Below are positions 2,330-10,074 of a DNA stretch of 11,495 nt, in pieces (the stretch's first letter is position 1; every line of letters starts with the position of its first letter). The stretch is taken from NCBI GenBank assembly GCA_031262335.1, contig JAISHX010000059.1, positions 1-11,495 of the forward strand. The letters run 5' to 3'. This stretch comes from Clostridiales bacterium (lineage in GTDB: Bacteria; Bacillota; Clostridia; Lachnospirales; WRAX01). A model generated the notes under the pieces. It was not told the DNA's origin. It was given only the letters and a program-made list of their open reading frames with translations, and made no database searches. A program made the position numbers and the translations under genes.

Positions 2330-2872
2330 CTATTTGCCAAATGTAACGATTGTAATAACAAGTGCGCCTGCAAGTCCTACAGCATTGGCTATCAACGCAC
2401 CGGCAAGCGTATAACGCGTTTTTGTTACATTTACGCTTAAAAAATACACACTCATTGTATAAAATACCGTTTCCGTACAGCTCATCATTACGGATACAAA
2501 CCGCCCTATAAATGAATCTGGACCGTAATTTTTAAAAATATCAAGCAATAATCCTGTTGATGCCGACGATGATACGAGCCGCATAAATGACAGCGGGACA
2601 GCTTCTTTTGGAAAGCCGACAACATTTGCGGCAGGGGAAAGAAGTTCTGACAGAAAAGTAAGAAAACCGGATTCGCGTAAAATTCCGACAGCAACCATAA
2701 GCCCGATTAATGTGGGAAGAATTTTTACGGTTATTTTCAAACCGTCTGTTGCACCTTCAAGAAAAGTATCGTATACACTTATTTTCTTTTTCATTCCAAA
2801 AATAATCATGACCGAAACTACTATAGGTATTATCATATCTGAAACAAATGAAACAATACCGATAAAATTCAT
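2330..2872 (-). CDS. spmB: Spore maturation protein SpmB
   Basis: A 180-aa polytopic membrane protein of the SpmB family (nucleoside-recognition/Gate domain). In Bacillus and Clostridium, SpmA and SpmB act together in the forespore and are needed for full dehydration of the spore core and for heat resistance; their transported solute is not established. Family landmarks seen here are LPTLIGLMVAVGILRESG near residues 53-70, PLSFMRLVSSSASTG near 93-107, and the conserved C-terminal block DSFIGRFVSVMMSCTETVFY near 118-137. Length is normal for the family. Its ATG overlaps the spmA stop codon (ATGA), so translation is coupled. A terminator follows the stop immediately, so this is the last gene of its unit. 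Confidence 0.95.
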   Translation of the reverse strand: MNFIGIVSFVSDMIIPIVVSVMIIFGMKKKISVYDTFLEGATDGLKITVKILPTLIGLMVAVGILRESGFLTFLSELLSPAANVVGFPKEAVPLSFMRLVSSSASTGLLLDIFKNYGPDSFIGRFVSVMMSCTETVFYTMSVYFLSVNVTKTRYTLAGALIANAVGLAGALVITIVTFGK

Positions 2873-3465
2873 TCTCTCACCGCCTTACCAAATGTCGCTC
2901 GTTCAAATACTTTTGCCGCAACGATTGCCGCAATACTTGAAAGTAGTGTCGCAGCAATTCCGGGACCTATTATTTCGGAAGGATTTGCCGAGTTATACTG
3001 TGAACGGTATGCAAGAATGTTTACTGTAATAAGTTGCAGACTTGACATGTTTATTATAAGAAACATGCACATTTCACGGCTGGCAGATTTTTTATCGGGG
3101 TTTATTTTTTGCAGTTCTTCCATTGCAAGAAGTCCGGGAGGTGTCGCCGCCCATCCAAGCCCTAAAATATTTGCGATAAAATTCGCGGATATATATTCCA
3201 TTGCTTTGCTGCGAGGATTAAGCGTCGGAAACAGAAACTTCAAAACAGGATAACATCTCCGCGCCAATGCGGAAACAAGTCCGCTTTTTTCTCCTATCCG
3301 CATAATTCCTGACCAAAAAGCCACAATCCCCGCCATTTTAATACAAACAGCAACAGCCTCCGCTGAGGAATTTATGCACGCGCTTGTCACAGAATCTATT
3401 CTGTTTGTGACAAGCGCATAAACAACTCCGATAAGTATCATTGCCGCCCAAAGTATATTAAGCAT
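2869..3465 (-). CDS. spmA: Spore maturation protein SpmA
   Basis: A 198-aa multi-pass membrane protein of the SpmA family (nucleoside-recognition/Gate domain), partner of SpmB in spore core dehydration. The N-terminus MLNILWAAMILIGVVYA is a membrane helix. Other family landmarks are FWSGIMRIGEKSGL near residues 50-63, a proline/glycine-rich ANILGLGWAATPPGL block near 97-111 and MFLIINMSSLQLITVNILAYR near 133-153. The ATG has a CGGAG ribosome site about 6 nt upstream. Only 46 nt separate it from the stop of the upstream S8 protease gene, with no terminator hairpin between, so spmAB is probably read from the protease promoter, an internal promoter I could not identify, or both. Confidence 0.95.
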   Translation of the reverse strand: MLNILWAAMILIGVVYALVTNRIDSVTSACINSSAEAVAVCIKMAGIVAFWSGIMRIGEKSGLVSALARRCYPVLKFLFPTLNPRSKAMEYISANFIANILGLGWAATPPGLLAMEELQKINPDKKSASREMCMFLIINMSSLQLITVNILAYRSQYNSANPSEIIGPGIAATLLSSIAAIVAAKVFERATFGKAVRE

Positions 3466-3511: not shown

Positions 3512-6500
3512 TTACGGAATATAATAACCGGTTTTTCTTTTTTCGAGAATAAGTAAAATAATAAAAATAGGCAGAAGAAAATTCTTTTTATGAACAGAAA
3601 CGGCGACTACATCTTGCGGAAACGAAAGATACGCCATATAATTGTTCCGCCGATTAAAAGTCGCGCTTAATTGCATAAATGTTTCAAACAAGTCAAGCTG
3701 ACCATAACCATATTGGTTATTTGGGTATACAATATCCGGACGGCGGTATGCTCCTGCAAGCAGCATTGACTTAACTATGTTTGTATTCATATAAGGATAA
3801 TTGCCGTCTACAACTCCCCACTGCAATAGCAACGCCGCCGCACCCCCGACAATAGTTGCCGAGATACTTGTTCCGCTTGCTGTTCTAAAACCGCCGCCGG
3901 CATCTGCTCCAGATACATTGACACCTGGCGCAATTAAATCGGGGCGGATTATTCCGGCACGCGACGGACCTCTGCTTCCGTCTATATACAAGTTTTGGTT
4001 TACATGATTGTATGCGCCGACAGAAATCAAATCCCTATCGCTGCCGCCGTTTGTTACTGTAGTTTCGGGAGAAGAATCAATGAAAAATGTATCCGGTTTG
4101 CTCCAGTTGTTCGCACTCATCCAAAAATGGAATGTTCCGTTTACGATTTTATCGCCTCGAAGAAAAATTTTCCATATGCCGGGTTCGGGATTTTTGAATC
4201 TCAAGCATGCAAATTCGTCGCCGTTATGTTCAACGCTCGTCATATAATCAAGCCACACTTGTGTATGATAAAAAATCATTTCAAAGCGCATGTTCAAAAG
4301 GTTGCGGGGACGCGTATAGTCAACTCTTTCACCTGACGGAGATTCAAAGCTTATTGAGAATCTATCCGGTGCATATCCCCAAATATTAACAAAAATTCCG
4401 CTTTCGCCTTCCGCGACATTAAATTCGCAGATTGCGATGTCCTCCGAAGCCCTGATTTGAACTTTTGCATGCTTGCGGGAGTTGCCTTCATTACCGCTTG
4501 CTGCCGTTATAATAAAGCTGCGGACATTATTTGAGCCTGTAAATGTTGTTATTGTGTCATGCGGACCCATGTTTGTTCCAAGTCCGAGTATTGCGGAAAG
4601 AGGCATATCAAACTCAGATGCCTTGTTAATAAGATAAAACAAGCCGAGAGCAATGTCCGTGTAATAAAAAGCAATCTTATCCTCGTCAAAAACCATACAT
4701 TCTTCACGGTCATTTTTTTTTGCCGGCGCAAGTTTGACAACAATAAGTTCGGCATCGGGAGCGATTCCAACATAATTAGAAATGTTACGTCCCGCCGCAA
4801 TGCTTGAAATAAATGTTCCGTGACCAATCGTGTCATTGGACGGAACAATCTCAAACGGATTGTCAGTTAAGAGTGCGGCGTTTATTTGTGCCTGCGTAAA
4901 TTCTGTGCCTTTGTTTATCGAAACAGGAGGCATGCCCACTTTTGAAGTTTGGTCCCACAGCAACATTATTTTTGAGGAGCCGTCCTCATAGCGAAAGCTT
5001 TCGTGCGTATAATTTATGCCGGAGTCAATAATCCCTACCAGCGTTCCGCTTCCGGTCAGGTTTAACTGAGGGTTGTTTATTAGCGGCAATATATCTGTTT
5101 CGGCAAGAATGTCTTTTTCAAGCACACCGTAAAGAAGAGGGTGGCTCAAGTCTGTAAGTATTGTTATTTGGTTTGCAAACTCTTGTATAAGGAAACGATT
5201 CATCGAAATAAGCGCTTTGTTATACTCAATCAAATATAAGAAAATTATATCATCTGTAGAATTTATTGCTCTTACAAGTGCCGGATTGTATTCAACTATT
5301 AAATCCACAAACTCTTCAGACATGATTTTGTCACGTTCTTCCCGCCATATGCTTTCTGATGCCTCTGCAGAATAAATATCGCGTGATGATTGTACAAGTA
5401 TGTCAAGAGAACTTAATGCACAAAGCTTGCCGTATCCCCATGAATTATTAGGGTATGTTATATTGCGTTCACGCTTTGCACCTGAACAAATTGCGCCTAA
5501 CAGCGTCTGACCGTAAAGATATGGGTTATTTCCGTGAACAATGCCCCACTGCATTAAAAGAGCGCATGTGCCGGTTACAAAAGGTGCCGCCATGCTTGTG
5601 CCGGTTTTTGTATCGTATCCGCCCATTGGAGCACATGAAACAATATTTTCAGCCGGAGCAACAACAGACGGATTTAGGTTATGTGTATCCATATTGCCGC
5701 CAAGACTGGAAAAAGTCGAAATCCGCCCGCTGATAAAATCATACCCGCCGACACTTATTACACTGCGTGCCGTTGCGGGTATTGTAAGCGTATTGTTGCG
5801 TTCGGCATCAATAAAATATGCTCTGTCAGAGCTTGATGATGTATTAAGCCACATATGGTATATTCCGTTCAAAACATCCACAGTATAAAATTTTATTGTC
5901 CAGATTCCTTCGCTAAGTTCTTCGCGGACGCTTGTAATTTCAATATTTATTTCTTCCATCATACTGAACGGCGTTCCCATTGAAAATACAATGTAAACAA
6001 GGTCAACACCCAAATTATATCTCAGACGGTTTCCGTTGTAAGGAATCCGTCCTGTGGATTGCCCGTTCGGACCGATAATTTCGACATCGACCATATCGAC
6101 TTGTGATTTCCACAGGTCAATAGAAACATATTTTGTCGGACTGTATATTGCTATTTGCACGGAAGATTCTGTTGCAAAAGCTCCTTCAGCATGTCTGTCG
6201 AGTGCGCCTTCGTTACCTGCTGCCGCTACTATTATTGTTTTTCCTAAAAGTGCCATATCGTCAACATAGCTTTCAAAAAGACTACTGCCATCATGCGAGC
6301 CGTAAGACGAGCCGTAACTCAAGTTAATAGCAATCGGCATATCAAGCTCTTCTGCGCGTTCGATTACATATTTCAGCGCATACATTACGTCAATCGTATT
6401 TATTGGATAGCTGTCATAATCAGGCATGCCAAGTTTAACAATAAGCAGGCTTGATTCCGGAGCCGCGCCAATGTATTCCTCGTCTGAAGCAAAACCGTTT

Positions 6501-6766
6501 CCCGCCGCTATGCCCGCAACGTGCGTACCGTGTCCCGAAAAATCATAGTGCGGAACAATCTCTCTGGCTGCCTCATAACTGCCTGTTGCAATCGCCTCAT
6601 TTATTATCTCAGACCCAAATTCTGCTCCAAAAGAAAAACCTTCCGGCGGCGTTCCGGTAATAGACATATCCCAAATACTTAATATGCGCGTATTGCCGTT
6701 TGCATCAATAAAATCAGGATGTGTATAATCTATGCCGGAAGGTATTATATGTAAAACACAACTCAA
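3512..6766 (-). CDS. Csp-like tandem S8 (subtilisin) protease, interrupted at its 5' end
   Basis: The open frame encodes two subtilisin-like (peptidase S8) modules. Module 1 (about residues 9-455) has the His motif DFSGHGTHVAG (His79), the oxyanion Asn in AAAGNEG (Asn185) and the Ser motif GTSMAAP (Ser391). Module 2 (about 570-1035) has a full set: Asp581 in GIIDSGINYTH, His649 in GHGTF, Asn759 in ASGNEG and Ser967 in SGTSISA. Each module has a roughly 120-residue beta-rich insert between Asn and Ser, as in clostridial Csp germination proteases, and residues 460-570 look like the prodomain of module 2. The architecture matches C. difficile CspBA, where CspB cuts pro-SleC. Module 1 has no prodomain, and its Asp motif reads IIPSGIDYTHPDF, with Pro9 where the catalytic Asp belongs. 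Genuine protease sequence starts near 6740. The nominal start is TTG with no ribosome site. So this is the 3' part of a gene broken by the adjacent recombinase element, either an excisable split gene or a pseudogene. The C-terminus ends with a short hydrophobic segment and EKRK. Confidence 0.85.
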   Translation of the reverse strand: MSCVLHIIPSGIDYTHPDFIDANGNTRILSIWDMSITGTPPEGFSFGAEFGSEIINEAIATGSYEAAREIVPHYDFSGHGTHVAGIAAGNGFASDEEYIGAAPESSLLIVKLGMPDYDSYPINTIDVMYALKYVIERAEELDMPIAINLSYGSSYGSHDGSSLFESYVDDMALLGKTIIVAAAGNEGALDRHAEGAFATESSVQIAIYSPTKYVSIDLWKSQVDMVDVEIIGPNGQSTGRIPYNGNRLRYNLGVDLVYIVFSMGTPFSMMEEINIEITSVREELSEGIWTIKFYTVDVLNGIYHMWLNTSSSSDRAYFIDAERNNTLTIPATARSVISVGGYDFISGRISTFSSLGGNMDTHNLNPSVVAPAENIVSCAPMGGYDTKTGTSMAAPFVTGTCALLMQWGIVHGNNPYLYGQTLLGAICSGAKRERNITYPNNSWGYGKLCALSSLDILVQSSRDIYSAEASESIWREERDKIMSEEFVDLIVEYNPALVRAINSTDDIIFLYLIEYNKALISMNRFLIQEFANQITILTDLSHPLLYGVLEKDILAETDILPLINNPQLNLTGSGTLVGIIDSGINYTHESFRYEDGSSKIMLLWDQTSKVGMPPVSINKGTEFTQAQINAALLTDNPFEIVPSNDTIGHGTFISSIAAGRNISNYVGIAPDAELIVVKLAPAKKNDREECMVFDEDKIAFYYTDIALGLFYLINKASEFDMPLSAILGLGTNMGPHDTITTFTGSNNVRSFIITAASGNEGNSRKHAKVQIRASEDIAICEFNVAEGESGIFVNIWGYAPDRFSISFESPSGERVDYTRPRNLLNMRFEMIFYHTQVWLDYMTSVEHNGDEFACLRFKNPEPGIWKIFLRGDKIVNGTFHFWMSANNWSKPDTFFIDSSPETTVTNGGSDRDLISVGAYNHVNQNLYIDGSRGPSRAGIIRPDLIAPGVNVSGADAGGGFRTASGTSISATIVGGAAALLLQWGVVDGNYPYMNTNIVKSMLLAGAYRRPDIVYPNNQYGYGQLDLFETFMQLSATFNRRNNYMAYLSFPQDVVAVSVHKKNFLLPIFIILLILEKRKTGYYIP
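6724..6749 (-). other. Putative recombinase attachment junction inside the protease gene
   Basis: On the minus strand the arms TATAAT and ATTATA (6744-6749 and 6724-6729) flank a 14-nt centre around CCGG, giving an imperfect 26-bp palindrome with 9 of 13 positions paired. Serine recombinase attachment sites usually are imperfect palindromes of this scale with a short crossover core. Protease homology runs up to TTCC at 6737-6740 (codon TCC plus the last T of the expected Asp codon GAT); beyond that the sequence belongs to the recombinase side. The recombinase stop codon is about 30 bp away. That this is the site used is inference. Confidence 0.5.
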
Positions 6767-6771
6767 AATTA

Positions 6772-8367
6772 TCAGAGATTAAACTCAATGCTTAGACTTT
6801 CGCCGTTCCAATAGACCGCTTTAAGCAAGTCTTTTATATAGAGTTGCCTTGTTTCCGGCGTAAGCGTAACAAAGTTATCATTAAAGTAAGAAAGTTTTTG
6901 CAGGAGTTCTTTTTCACGCTGTTCTGTGGCTTTTAAATTTTCGCTTAGTGCTTTAATATTTTTAAGCTCCGATTGTTTTTTGTTTAATTGTGTGTCAAGC
7001 TGTTCAATCTGTGCAAATACGTATTTTTCGGCGGTTTGATTTTTTGAAAGCATTAGTGTAAGATTATGTATTTGCGTTGTTAATTCTGATATTTCATGTT
7101 CAATGATTGCGGCGCGGTCATGCTCTGATAAGGTTTTGGGAAGTTTTAACAATGATATGAATTTATCTGTATTCATTTCGGCATAAGCGGAAAGCTGTTT
7201 TATAATTTCTGTATCTGCCTCTTTGCCGTCAAGATTTTTTATGCTGCATTTTTTTCCGCGTGACCGAGCTTTTGTGTGACATCTGTAATAATAATTTTCC
7301 TCATTTTTATTGGTTCGGTATGTTACGCCCATTTTGCCGCCGCATTCCGAGCACCGCAAAACAGAAGAAATTAAAGATACTTTTGATGTGCTTTCGCGGG
7401 GGGCTTTATCAGCATTATACTTTATAATGCTTTGAGTTTCAAGCCATGTTTTTGAAGAAATTATACCTTTGTGAGTACCTATTGCTATTATCCAATATTT
7501 AAAGTCATTAACTTTTTGTTTTTTGTTTGCGCCCTTACCAAAACTATATTTTCGGTGAATCAGCAATCCGTTACCGTTAAAATCTTCTTTTGCAGAAGCT
7601 ATATCGCAGCCTAATTCAGAAAAATAGGTATAGATTGATTCATCGGAAATAACATAGACCGGATTTTCAAGTATGTGTTTTAACGGTGTTACCGCAAAGT
7701 TAGAATTTCTGTTTGTGAAAATTCTTTTTTCTTCTAAATAGAGTGATAATTTCCCGAGTGAACGTAACTCAAGATATTTATCAAAAATAAGGCGAATCGT
7801 TTCAAGAGCTTGTTCATCATGAATAAGTTTTGTAAAATTACGTTTGTTCCCTGATTCGTCAACAAAAGATTGTTTTTCTGTCTTAAAACCGAACGCCGGC
7901 TTGCCGTTAAGCCAGCGTTCGGAACGTGCAAGCTTGGCAAGGTTGTCGCGGATTCGTTCGGTTATAGTTTCTCTTTCAAGCTGTGCGAAAACCGATGCGA
8001 TGTATAGCATTGCGCGTCCGACAGGTGTTGAGGTGTCGAAACGTTCCGTTACCGAAACAAATGTAATGTTTCTTGAATTTAATTCTTCTAAAATTTCTGA
8101 AAAATCCATAACCGAGCGGCTTATACGGTCTAAACGGTAACATATCAGAGCGGAAATTTCTCCGGATTTAATATCATTCAGAAGCCGATTAAAGGCAGGG
8201 CGGTTTGTGGTGCCGCCCGAAAAGCCCTCATCGGCATAAACCTCAAAAGCTGATTCTCCTGTAGTAAAATTCAGTTTGGCGTACTGTTTGCACATATCAA
8301 TTTGATTTTGGATACTTTCGCCTTTTTCGCTTGCGCGGGACTTGCGGGAGTAAATAGCAGTTTTCAT
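6772..8367 (-). CDS. Large serine recombinase (SpoIVCA/TnpX-type site-specific recombinase)
   Basis: A 531-aa DNA recombinase that would cut and rejoin att sites through a serine-DNA intermediate. Residues 1-150 are the resolvase catalytic domain: YSRKS with the expected nucleophile Ser10, DEGFSGG near 46-52, YRLDRISR at 77-84 with the conserved arginines, and a long E helix near 120-147. Residues 155-310 fit the Recombinase domain (WLNGKPAFGF). A zinc ribbon follows with Cys339, Cys342, Cys363 and Cys374. Residues 400-490 are a charged heptad-rich coiled coil of the type that controls integration versus excision. Length fits SpoIVCA (about 500 aa) and other large serine integrases. The ATG overlaps the stop of the upstream small gene (ATGA). 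The gene ends about 30 bp from the broken protease frame, the usual position of an integrase next to its attachment site. No frameshift or lost motif is visible, so it is probably active. Confidence 0.93.
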   Translation of the reverse strand: MKTAIYSRKSRASEKGESIQNQIDMCKQYAKLNFTTGESAFEVYADEGFSGGTTNRPAFNRLLNDIKSGEISALICYRLDRISRSVMDFSEILEELNSRNITFVSVTERFDTSTPVGRAMLYIASVFAQLERETITERIRDNLAKLARSERWLNGKPAFGFKTEKQSFVDESGNKRNFTKLIHDEQALETIRLIFDKYLELRSLGKLSLYLEEKRIFTNRNSNFAVTPLKHILENPVYVISDESIYTYFSELGCDIASAKEDFNGNGLLIHRKYSFGKGANKKQKVNDFKYWIIAIGTHKGIISSKTWLETQSIIKYNADKAPRESTSKVSLISSVLRCSECGGKMGVTYRTNKNEENYYYRCHTKARSRGKKCSIKNLDGKEADTEIIKQLSAYAEMNTDKFISLLKLPKTLSEHDRAAIIEHEISELTTQIHNLTLMLSKNQTAEKYVFAQIEQLDTQLNKKQSELKNIKALSENLKATEQREKELLQKLSYFNDNFVTLTPETRQLYIKDLLKAVYWNGESLSIEFNL

Positions 8368-8534
8368 TTCTTACCACAAACTCTTTCGTAAAACCCCTCA
8401 AAGTCTTTGTCAATGTCGGCATTTATTGCACGGACAGCGGCTTGCGTACATTTTTCGCGCCAGTGGTTTCTTTCTTCCTCCGTTATGGGCGGATTTAATA
8501 CAATAACTTTTATTTTTTGCTTACTTTTTGGCAA
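8364..8534 (-). CDS. Small basic protein coupled to the recombinase
   Basis: A 56-codon frame that I do not recognise. It starts at TTG (8532-8534), 6 nt after a very strong GGGGAGGGG ribosome site (about 8541-8549), and its TGA overlaps the recombinase ATG as ATGA. The product begins PKSKQKIKVIVLNPPITEEE (a strongly basic start, a beta-strand-like stretch, then acidic residues) and continues as a charged helix ending in FYERVCGKK. The ribosome site, non-AUG start and stop/start overlap support a real gene better than its length does. Its position suggests a role with the recombinase, for example as a directionality or accessory factor, but nothing in the sequence proves this. The frame stays open further upstream, but no other start there has a comparable ribosome site. 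Confidence 0.65.
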   Translation of the reverse strand: MPKSKQKIKVIVLNPPITEEERNHWREKCTQAAVRAINADIDKDFEGFYERVCGKK

Positions 8535-8659
8535 TTTCAGCCCCTCCCCTCTTTTTTTAAGTTTATGTTGCTTGAATTGATTTATTCTTTTGCACGATGC
8601 TAATCTTGCGGTTACAGCATGCCACTTTATAACGAGTATGACAAGAGAAATTTTCGTAC

Positions 8660-8686: not shown

Positions 8687-8712
8687 AAAAAAACCCTCTT
8701 GCGAGAGTTTTT
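8687..8712 (-). terminator. Rho-independent terminator of the ECF-DUF1893 operon
   Basis: On the minus strand, CTCT/AGAG (8704-8707 with 8696-8699) close a 4-nt loop, the stem extends through A-rich/T-rich flanks with a small internal mismatch, and seven T residues follow (complement of 8687-8693). It lies about 50 nt after the DUF1893 stop codon and separates that operon from the recombinase genes. Confidence 0.75.
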
Positions 8713-8760: not shown

Positions 8761-9219
8761 TTACTGAATAGATGATAAACAGGCTTTAAGGCATTTGACG
8801 GTGTCGATAATTTGAGTAAGACATTTGTACGGTTCTTTAACATCCAATACAGAACGCTCTATCGGGCATATGCCGTTCTCGTTTTTATTATGAATTACTT
8901 CCGCAATTTCACCATATGTAGCATGTACATTGTGCAAAGCAAGGTACTCGTGGGCGGCAATACTCATGACATCTCCGTAAACTTCACTTGCACCGCCCAT
9001 GATTATTATTGCAGCCGCCGCTTTTCCGATAATTTTGTCCGCCACAAAAGAATCCTGAAATTTATCAGGCTCGGTTTGATACAGTTTCAAAAGCGGTGAA
9101 ACACCGTGTCCGCTGGCAACATAAATATTCTGCCCGTTGCGTACAACTACACAAGTCGCCTCACCGCTTTTTATAGCTTGCACCGCCCCAATTTTTGATT
9201 TCTCCAAGTTTTGAGGCAT
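8761..9219 (-). CDS. DUF1893 family protein
   Basis: A 152-aa soluble protein of the DUF1893 family (TM1506-like), whose founding structure has a cytidine-deaminase-like fold; no reaction is established. Landmarks are CVVVRNGQNIYVASGHGVSP near residues 23-42, VADKIIGKAAA at 59-69, YGDVMS near 81-86 and the C-terminal NGICPIERSVLD near 115-126 with Cys118. No canonical deaminase HAE...PCxxC zinc signature is visible, so a binding role is as likely as catalysis. I chose ATG at 9219 over an ATG at 9252: the former has GAGGGA 7 nt upstream and begins MPQNLEKSK as family members do, whereas the latter would overlap the ECF gene by 29 nt without a ribosome site. It follows the ECF S-component gene after 4 nt, so the two are co-translated, suggesting it handles the imported compound or senses it. 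Confidence 0.85.
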   Translation of the reverse strand: MPQNLEKSKIGAVQAIKSGEATCVVVRNGQNIYVASGHGVSPLLKLYQTEPDKFQDSFVADKIIGKAAAAIIIMGGASEVYGDVMSIAAHEYLALHNVHATYGEIAEVIHNKNENGICPIERSVLDVKEPYKCLTQIIDTVKCLKACLSSIQ

Positions 9220-9223
9220 AGTT

Positions 9224-9781
9224 CTATCCCTCACGCTTATTAATATTTTCAATACGGAATATAAGCAAAGGCATAATAGCCCATTGAAGCAAATAGCCGG
9301 GTAATGCCGTTTTGATTCCGTTCAGTATGCTTGCTGCGCCAACCGTTTCATTGCCCAATAGATAAATGCTTGCCATAACTGCTACTGCAAATGCGATTCT
9401 GCCTGACAACTGTGCACTAATCACTTTTAAAATAGTCGGCATTTTAACGGTATACAACAAGCCTGAAGACAAACCAAACACCGCAAGTTCTACCATTATA
9501 AATGGCAAAAGAACCGTTGTGGGCATGCCTGAAAGTGCAAAACTAACAAGCGGTGCTAACGCACCGGAAACAGCACCTGCGAATGGTCCGGCTAAAAATC
9601 CTACAGCTATAATCGGCAGATACATCGGTAGGAAAGTCTGACCGAGACCTGCTCCCAAGCCGGAGATTGTTCCGACAGCATGGAAAACCTGCGGCAGAGC
9701 TACCGCCGCAACAATTGCCGTCAAAATAGCTAAAGTCTGAACTTTAGCGTTGGTTCTGCTAATAACAATTGCTTTTGTCAT
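9224..9781 (-). CDS. ECF transporter S component (substrate-binding membrane protein)
   Basis: A 185-aa hydrophobic protein with about six membrane segments, typical of the S (substrate-capture) subunit of energy-coupling factor vitamin importers. After a short polar N-terminus (MTKAIVISRTNAKVQ), segment 1 follows. A loop-rich block, GLGQTFLPMYLPIIAVGFLA, then GPFAGAVSGALAPLVSFALS, is the pattern I associate with the ECF S components annotated generically or as cobalamin/CbrT-like, but the vitamin cannot be assigned. It ends with a positively charged tail. The ATG has AGAGAGG 8 nt upstream. No EcfA1/EcfA2/EcfT genes are present, so it should share a module encoded elsewhere (group II ECF). 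It is the first gene of a two-gene operon with DUF1893. Confidence 0.85.
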   Translation of the reverse strand: MTKAIVISRTNAKVQTLAILTAIVAAVALPQVFHAVGTISGLGAGLGQTFLPMYLPIIAVGFLAGPFAGAVSGALAPLVSFALSGMPTTVLLPFIMVELAVFGLSSGLLYTVKMPTILKVISAQLSGRIAFAVAVMASIYLLGNETVGAASILNGIKTALPGYLLQWAIMPLLIFRIENINKREG

Positions 9782-9986: not shown

Positions 9987-9991
9987 TTGAC

Positions 9992-10064
9992 TGGAGATAA
10001 AGGGACTCGAACCCTCGACCTCTCGGATGCGAACCGAACGCACTCCCATCTGTGCTATATCCCC
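9992..10064 (-). tRNA. tRNA-Ala (anticodon CGC)
   Basis: A 73-nt cloverleaf on the minus strand. The acceptor GGGGATA/TATCTCC has the G3:U70 wobble that identifies alanine tRNAs. Then come a D stem GCAC/GTGC, an anticodon stem TTCGG/CCGAG with loop TTCGCAT (U33, anticodon CGC, A37), a 5-nt variable region, a T stem GAGGG/CCCTT with loop TTCGAGT, and A73. The 3' CCA is not encoded (next bases GTC). It reads GCG codons. A near-consensus promoter lies immediately upstream, so it is transcribed alone. Confidence 0.95.
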
Positions 10065-10074
10065 AACAATACCA

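Follow-up and report, generated by a model that had tools for sequence, protein, structure and literature searches.

Why does a csp-type germination protease gene begin in the middle of its own catalytic Asp motif, right beside a large serine recombinase, and is such a gene dead or can it be made whole again? We addressed this question in a window of 11,495 nucleotides, which is contig C224 (JAISHX010000059.1) of the metagenome bin G000 of a Clostridiales bacterium (1.10 Mb in 224 contigs, 58.5% complete); C48 and C159 are further contigs of the same bin. The organism is likely a spore former, because its sigK is one frame (215 aa, above the cut-off of NF004471 and below that of TIGR02846) and spoIIAA, spoIIAB and sigF are present, all as open frames. 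In profile searches SpoIIAB and SigF scored above their cut-offs and SpoIIAA slightly below.

A csp gene in two parts

The protease gene, its downstream neighbors and the recombinase lie on the same strand of the window:

2330..2872, minus strand: Gate-domain protein (Pfam Gate), which we take from its size and pairing to be SpmB-like
2869..3465, minus strand: Gate-domain protein (Pfam Gate, slightly under the gathering score), presumably SpmA-like, again judged from size and pairing
3512..6734, minus strand: 3' part of the csp gene with tandem S8 modules, recognized by profile match, in-silico join and catalytic residues
6772..8367, minus strand: large serine recombinase of 531 aa, the proposed csp-rejoining enzyme (Pfam Resolvase, Recombinase and Zn_ribbon_recom; PHROG 95 integrase)

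The whole protease frame (3512-6766, minus strand) runs for 1,084 aa without a stop. Its best NCBIfam match is CspBA, at profile positions 88-1098 of 1099, and since this match begins at position 88, the window frame lacks roughly the first 87 positions, which hold the prodomain and the Asp. The start of the frame reads ..HIIPSGIDYTHPDF, with Pro9 in the place of the first-module Asp. The first module retains His79, Asn185 and Ser391, the second Asp581, His649 and Ser967; in the split state the first module has neither prodomain nor Asp. Against the CspBA model the 3' part scores 666.7 bits, the cut-off being 1250, a value reached in none of the 58 genomes searched; the CspBA-type features found are the CspB prodomain in the 5' part and the tandem S8 modules in the 3' part. 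The initial annotation, made from the letters of the window alone, had described a csp-like gene broken inside the Asp motif, with prodomain and Asp absent, about 1080 codons without a stop that keep the three first-module residues, and an intact large serine recombinase about 30 bp away. The profile match, Pro9 and the 1,084-aa frame bear this out, as does the recombinase, the frame of which is open throughout its 531 aa and ends 31 bp from the recombination-site core.

The same annotation had predicted that the rest of the genome would contain a 5' frame of roughly 100-115 codons. When the CspBA model was searched against all contigs of the bin, two places matched, the window and positions 3788-4093 of C48, where this frame was found:

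C48 3674-4096, outside the window: 5' part of the csp gene (5' exon), a frame of 140-143 aa with the CspB prodomain, ending at the Asp motif IIDSG

The prodomain in this frame scores 67.1 bits (cut-off 25). The Asp is residue 129 of 140, and after its motif a few codons unlike csp lead to a stop. Rather than being absent or decayed, the 5' exon is open and stop-free, which leaves the split reading standing. Joined in silico, the C48 half and the window half give 1,204 codons with no stop and with the Asp regained, and an alignment of the joined protein with seven relatives is gapless at the join. Chance is an unlikely explanation of this coincidence, because the family, the breakpoint and the frame are the same and matching recombination-site arms occur on two separate contigs. 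Beyond the two halves, the CspBA model search found no other csp copy in the bin, which is 58.5% complete; therefore, a second copy could be missing from the assembly. A search of the protein collection for other lone 5' exons (10 candidates, with proteins of 0.55-1.75 times the query length) returned only the C48 frame itself.

We also asked whether the csp genes of relatives start at the breakpoint. They carry the gene uninterrupted, and the split reading again held. The CspBA model matched in 34 of 58 genomes (G000 included), with no lone 5' csp piece in any other row listed among those 58, and a survey of the prodomain in 106 genomes of the order (G000 included) gave matches in 54 (72 rows). 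Only two of the 72 rows are in frames shorter than 300 aa, namely, the C48 half of G000 and a frame of 96 aa with three internal stops in G018. In the latter genome (C25, 75554-77118) the csp prodomain with its three stops is directly beside its own protease frame, and since the piece directly adjoins its own csp match, this copy is probably a case of plain decay without insertion. When 392 genomes were drawn more widely, the 3' part had matches (E up to 1e-100) in at least 146. Residues 1-500 of the 3' part, used as a protein query, found 3,352 proteins, the six best of which are 47-52% identical, 1,186-1,226 residues long and possess the prodomain; among the 120 listed, this domain is absent from four (P0035, which is the window's own, P0083, P0106 and P0119). 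P0083 is a CspBA-type protein of 1,038 aa that starts a few residues ahead of the Asp motif, without prodomain; a further split, a frameshift or the edge of a contig could explain this.

Recombination sites and the DNA inside them

The two breakpoints have the hexamer TTCCGG in common (C48 4060-4065, window 6740-6735), and the sites read as follows:

6735..6740, minus strand: attR core TTCCGG, within the Asp-Ser-Gly codons of csp
6753..6763, minus strand: P arm AGTTGTGTTTT, which recurs perfectly inverted in the inner arm of attL (C48)
C48 4060-4065, outside the window: attL core TTCCGG, partner of attR, within the Asp-Ser-Gly codons

Taken together, the inner arms of attL and attR form an attP-like dyad centered between TT and CC, with matches at 18 of 30 positions (reached in 114 of 20,000 shuffles) and a perfect run of 11 bp (reached in 4 of 20,000). 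Symmetry on the attB side is not significant (13 matches, reached in 1,184 of 5,000 shuffles). Symmetric attP arms are described as the rule for phage serine recombinases in the sections consulted of PMC5595907. With up to 3 mismatches allowed, the bin yielded no other copy of the attL arm sequence, and because the att arms match across contigs, C48 and C224 are tied to each other independently of binning. As far as sequence goes, it is almost certain that the split in csp could be precisely rejoined at the att sites of the recombinase. The locus has three of the features that mark a skin-type arrangement: a spore-formation gene in two undecayed parts that rejoin in frame in silico, a site-specific recombinase encoded at the att end, and a core shared by attL and attR with symmetric P arms.

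Inside attL, C48 carries an AT-rich gene for a protein of 274 aa (GC 27-29%, without a Pfam match), followed by acpS-nnrD. This gene (L006, C48 4995-6170), a fusion of acpS and nnrD into a single frame of 391 aa, is the sole match to the fused protein and the sole acpS found in the bin; used as a query against 15 genomes of the family, it gave matches of ACPS length, except for one of the NnrD type in G007. Inside attR, beyond the recombinase operon, there are an ECF-DUF1893 pair, a tRNA-Ala and two more frames:

8761..9252, minus strand: DUF1893 protein (profile match), inner side of attR
9224..9781, minus strand: ECF transporter substrate component (28.9 bits, gathering score 30.7), inner side of attR
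9991..10065, minus strand: tRNA-Ala (CGC), inner side of attR

The ECF-DUF1893 pair was found in G008 too. The DNA immediately upstream of the recombinase continues into DUF1893 instead of the 5' exon, which rules out a short mobile element with its end there. A known phage was also rejected: with the recombinase and the 274-aa C48 protein as queries, no confirmed relative was found in IMG/VR, and the best phage record has 38% identity.

The inner ends of C48 and C224 showed no overlap with any contig of the bin; the only contig join found is at the outer end of C224, which overlaps C159 by 119 bp. Synteny in 16 regions of other genomes gave nothing useful on direct versus inverted order. At attL the GC skew changes sign (from about +0.2 to -0.2), while nothing similar is seen at attR, a pattern compatible with either a direct or an inverted arrangement. 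With ordinary genes inside the att sites, the locus may be an inversion or a rearranged element rather than a compact skin, and the csp split could correspond to a large segment in direct order, an inversion or an element that was later rearranged. Recombination between attL and attR would rejoin csp in each topology, with a different fate for the segment.

The recombinase, its upstream region and its relatives

The 531-aa recombinase is the only such match in the bin (E up to 1e-5). Upstream of it are the following features:

8364..8534, minus strand: frame of 56 aa with a TTG start, overlapping the recombinase start by four bases (ATGA)
8560..8587, minus strand: sigma-E-type promoter pattern GAATAAA-13-CATAAACT, an exact match ahead of the 56-aa frame
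8689..8712, minus strand: terminator-like hairpin after the ECF-DUF1893 pair (weak, one found versus 2.0 expected in shuffles)

The 56-aa frame, which by our own count carries a net positive charge, is a candidate recombination directionality factor. These factors have little sequence similarity among them and most are small and basic, according to the sections consulted of PMC5025042. Searched against the best 80 of at least 574 recombinase loci, the frame gave a single weak match (30 residues, E 0.08). Because of the hairpin at 8689..8712, the recombinase operon probably starts separately from the ECF-DUF1893 pair. Six sigma-factor patterns, the sigma-E-type one included, all in the form that we assume for them, were tried on the DNA ahead of the recombinase and ahead of the 5' exon. 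The sigma-E-type match was the only exact one of the six (mean 0.00 in 200 simple shuffles), and five pieces of the organism's own DNA (30.6 kb, both strands) contained two exact matches to this pattern, the second one intragenic. Two results count against a skin-type reading: none of the six patterns gave an exact sporulation-sigma match upstream of the C48 5' exon, and among 79 recombinase relatives not one is preceded by the sigma-E-type match (chance would give 0.75 in total), so that this motif is not a general mark of the recombinase kindred.

Identity to the window recombinase is 42-46% among the ten best-matching other proteins. A single-sequence scan of GTDB with the window recombinase gave no matches; an alignment-based scan confirmed at least 574 stretches, the best 80 of which were taken as relative loci. 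Among these best 80 of at least 574, a sigK piece lies within 200 bp of the recombinase match in 39, and a csp gene is beside it in none. For 16 of the other 41 loci, the frame adjoining the recombinase was run against profiles, which identified yabG (L105, L119), spoVFB (L116), FeoB (L101), a GidA/FAD-type protein (L100, L125) and a transporter permease (L089, L096); the frame at L108 had a weak profile match only, and seven of the 16 had none. Neighbors without a sporulation tie, that is, feoB and the transporter genes, count against a skin-type reading. For the tree, labels were also assigned by eye (L133, spoVFB; L102 and L162, feoB; L123, L127, L129, L147 and L148, FAD oxidoreductase), with the remaining 27 classed as "other." The sigK label is strongly clustered on this tree (5 changes versus a shuffled mean of 27.3). 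A long branch (1.48) leads to the window recombinase, which falls outside the main sigK clade in a group with mixed labels (sigK, yabG, FAD oxidoreductase and other), and its nearest neighbors by path, across that long branch, are two sigK-abutting rows of the mixed group (2.22 and 2.31).

Within the same family, 4 of 15 genomes (G001, G006, G010 and G011) have a relative of the recombinase at E up to 1e-60, which in G006 and G010 adjoins one sigK part. G011 has a skin-type sigK split (L213, C163 2414-13359) with the parts about 10 kb apart and the related recombinase between them. In G001 (L209, contig C3), a related recombinase (4571-6169, plus strand) adjoins a further S8 protease gene, of which the 5' part (6053-6934) is present, cut off before the Ser motif. 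Ordinary genes lie nearby, namely one similar to queG and one that looks by eye like a glycosidase. No 3' part turned up when the 99-kb contig was scanned along its full length for a Ser motif. This locus is possibly a second split protease gene, and since its recombinase adjoins a truncated S8 gene near ordinary genes, the split-protease architecture may recur in the family.

Competing explanations and known systems

We consider that the split csp gene is best explained, with a probability of roughly 0.6, as a skin-type sporulation gene rearrangement with developmental rejoining in the mother cell. A CspBA-type gene would be split at the att sites of a large serine recombinase in its first-module catalytic Asp codons; during sporulation, sigma-E would activate the recombinase together with the 56-aa frame in the mother cell, recombination of attL with attR at TTCCGG would rejoin csp, and the restored protease would be loaded into the spore, the chromosome of which would keep the split state. 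The initial annotation had proposed a skin-type element, and much of that proposal agrees with the split at att sites beside an intact recombinase, the open 5' exon that joins in frame, the uninterrupted relatives and the recombinase relatives that adjoin sigK, yabG or spoVFB. The bounded element that it implies is less certain, the halves lying on two separate, unbridged contigs with ordinary genes on their inner flanks. A bolder version, which we regard as tentative and rather doubtful, is that working chromosome (with the only acpS found, the tRNA-Ala and the ECF-DUF1893 pair), not a mobile element, lies between the halves, and that csp would be restored by a chromosome-scale inversion or excision affordable only to a doomed mother cell.

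Alternatively, the integrase of a mobile element may have used csp as its attB, leaving a dead gene that is never rejoined. Some recombinase relatives do adjoin feoB and transporter genes, for which we know of no regulated excision, and the rejoining of csp has so far been read in silico. However, both halves keep open frames and catalytic residues, the recombinase gene is undamaged, the bin search gave no further csp copy, and sigK, sigF, spoIIAA and spoIIAB are present as open frames, all of which make such an insertion pseudogene unlikely. We give even less credit to a switch in which attL and attR are inverted on one chromosome and a large segment flips, turning csp on and off, perhaps regardless of sporulation. 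It would account for the ordinary genes on both inner flanks and for a skew flip at attL only, and the C. difficile skin recombinase inverted plasmid DNA with attP and attB so placed (PMC5025042, in the sections consulted), but strand flips are common, direct order fits the same pattern, and both contigs continue unbroken through the att core, which would argue against a mixed population. It is highly improbable that C48 and C224 are chimeric or come from different organisms. Despite the fragmented and incomplete bin (224 contigs, 58.5%) and a tetranucleotide correlation of only 0.26 between the inner parts of the two contigs, their arms are perfect inverted repeats over 11 bp and, as a weaker argument, their outer parts correlate at 0.54 with each other and at 0.58 and 0.62 with C159, versus family maxima of 0.47 and 0.50.

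If a developmental rearrangement of csp is indeed what the locus encodes, programmed DNA rearrangement would no longer be confined to genes that build the spore (sigK, gerE, spsM, spoVFB and yabG) and would include one that controls its awakening. The recombinase would set germination capacity irreversibly in the mother cell, and a complete first protease module would be beyond the reach of cells with split csp. The claim is directly testable, with the breakpoint, the att sites and a candidate directionality factor defined.

The sporulation genes named as split in the sections consulted of PMC10747680 and PMC5595907 are sigK, spsM, spoVFB, gerE and yabG, and those of PMC6957869 also describe a prophage in kamA. 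The claim that no csp-type gene had been reported as so interrupted agrees with our search, in which no report of a split csp gene was found in the literature covered, most subscription journals lying outside it. One close parallel in architecture is skin (C. difficile and B. subtilis; sigK, SpoIVCA-type), which likewise has a large serine recombinase at one end and halves of a mother-cell gene joining in frame via attL and attR; a sigK piece also adjoins 39 of the 80 relatives of the window recombinase. In contrast, the target here is a germination protease, sigK of G000 is one frame, and no bounded element is seen. The other systems are compared as they appear in the parts of the sources consulted. 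The SP-beta prophage in spsM also has a serine recombinase, and its rejoining is developmentally regulated; it is a whole prophage, whereas none of the three csp inner-flank proteins tried had a PHROG match. The elements gin (gerE, B. cereus) and vfbin (spoVFB, B. weihenstephanensis) are, like the csp locus, recombinase-bearing insertions in sporulation genes, although in different targets; gin is non-phage and requires a separate directionality factor, GirX. The gerE rearrangement has been demonstrated, and for yin, a prophage-like element in yabG of C. botulinum, the excised circle has been observed, whereas for csp, in this as in the comparison with skin, rejoining is predicted from sequence. 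YabG is a cysteine protease, unlike Csp, but in yin, as here, it is the gene of a spore protease that is split, and the wider tree that holds the window recombinase also includes two that adjoin yabG.
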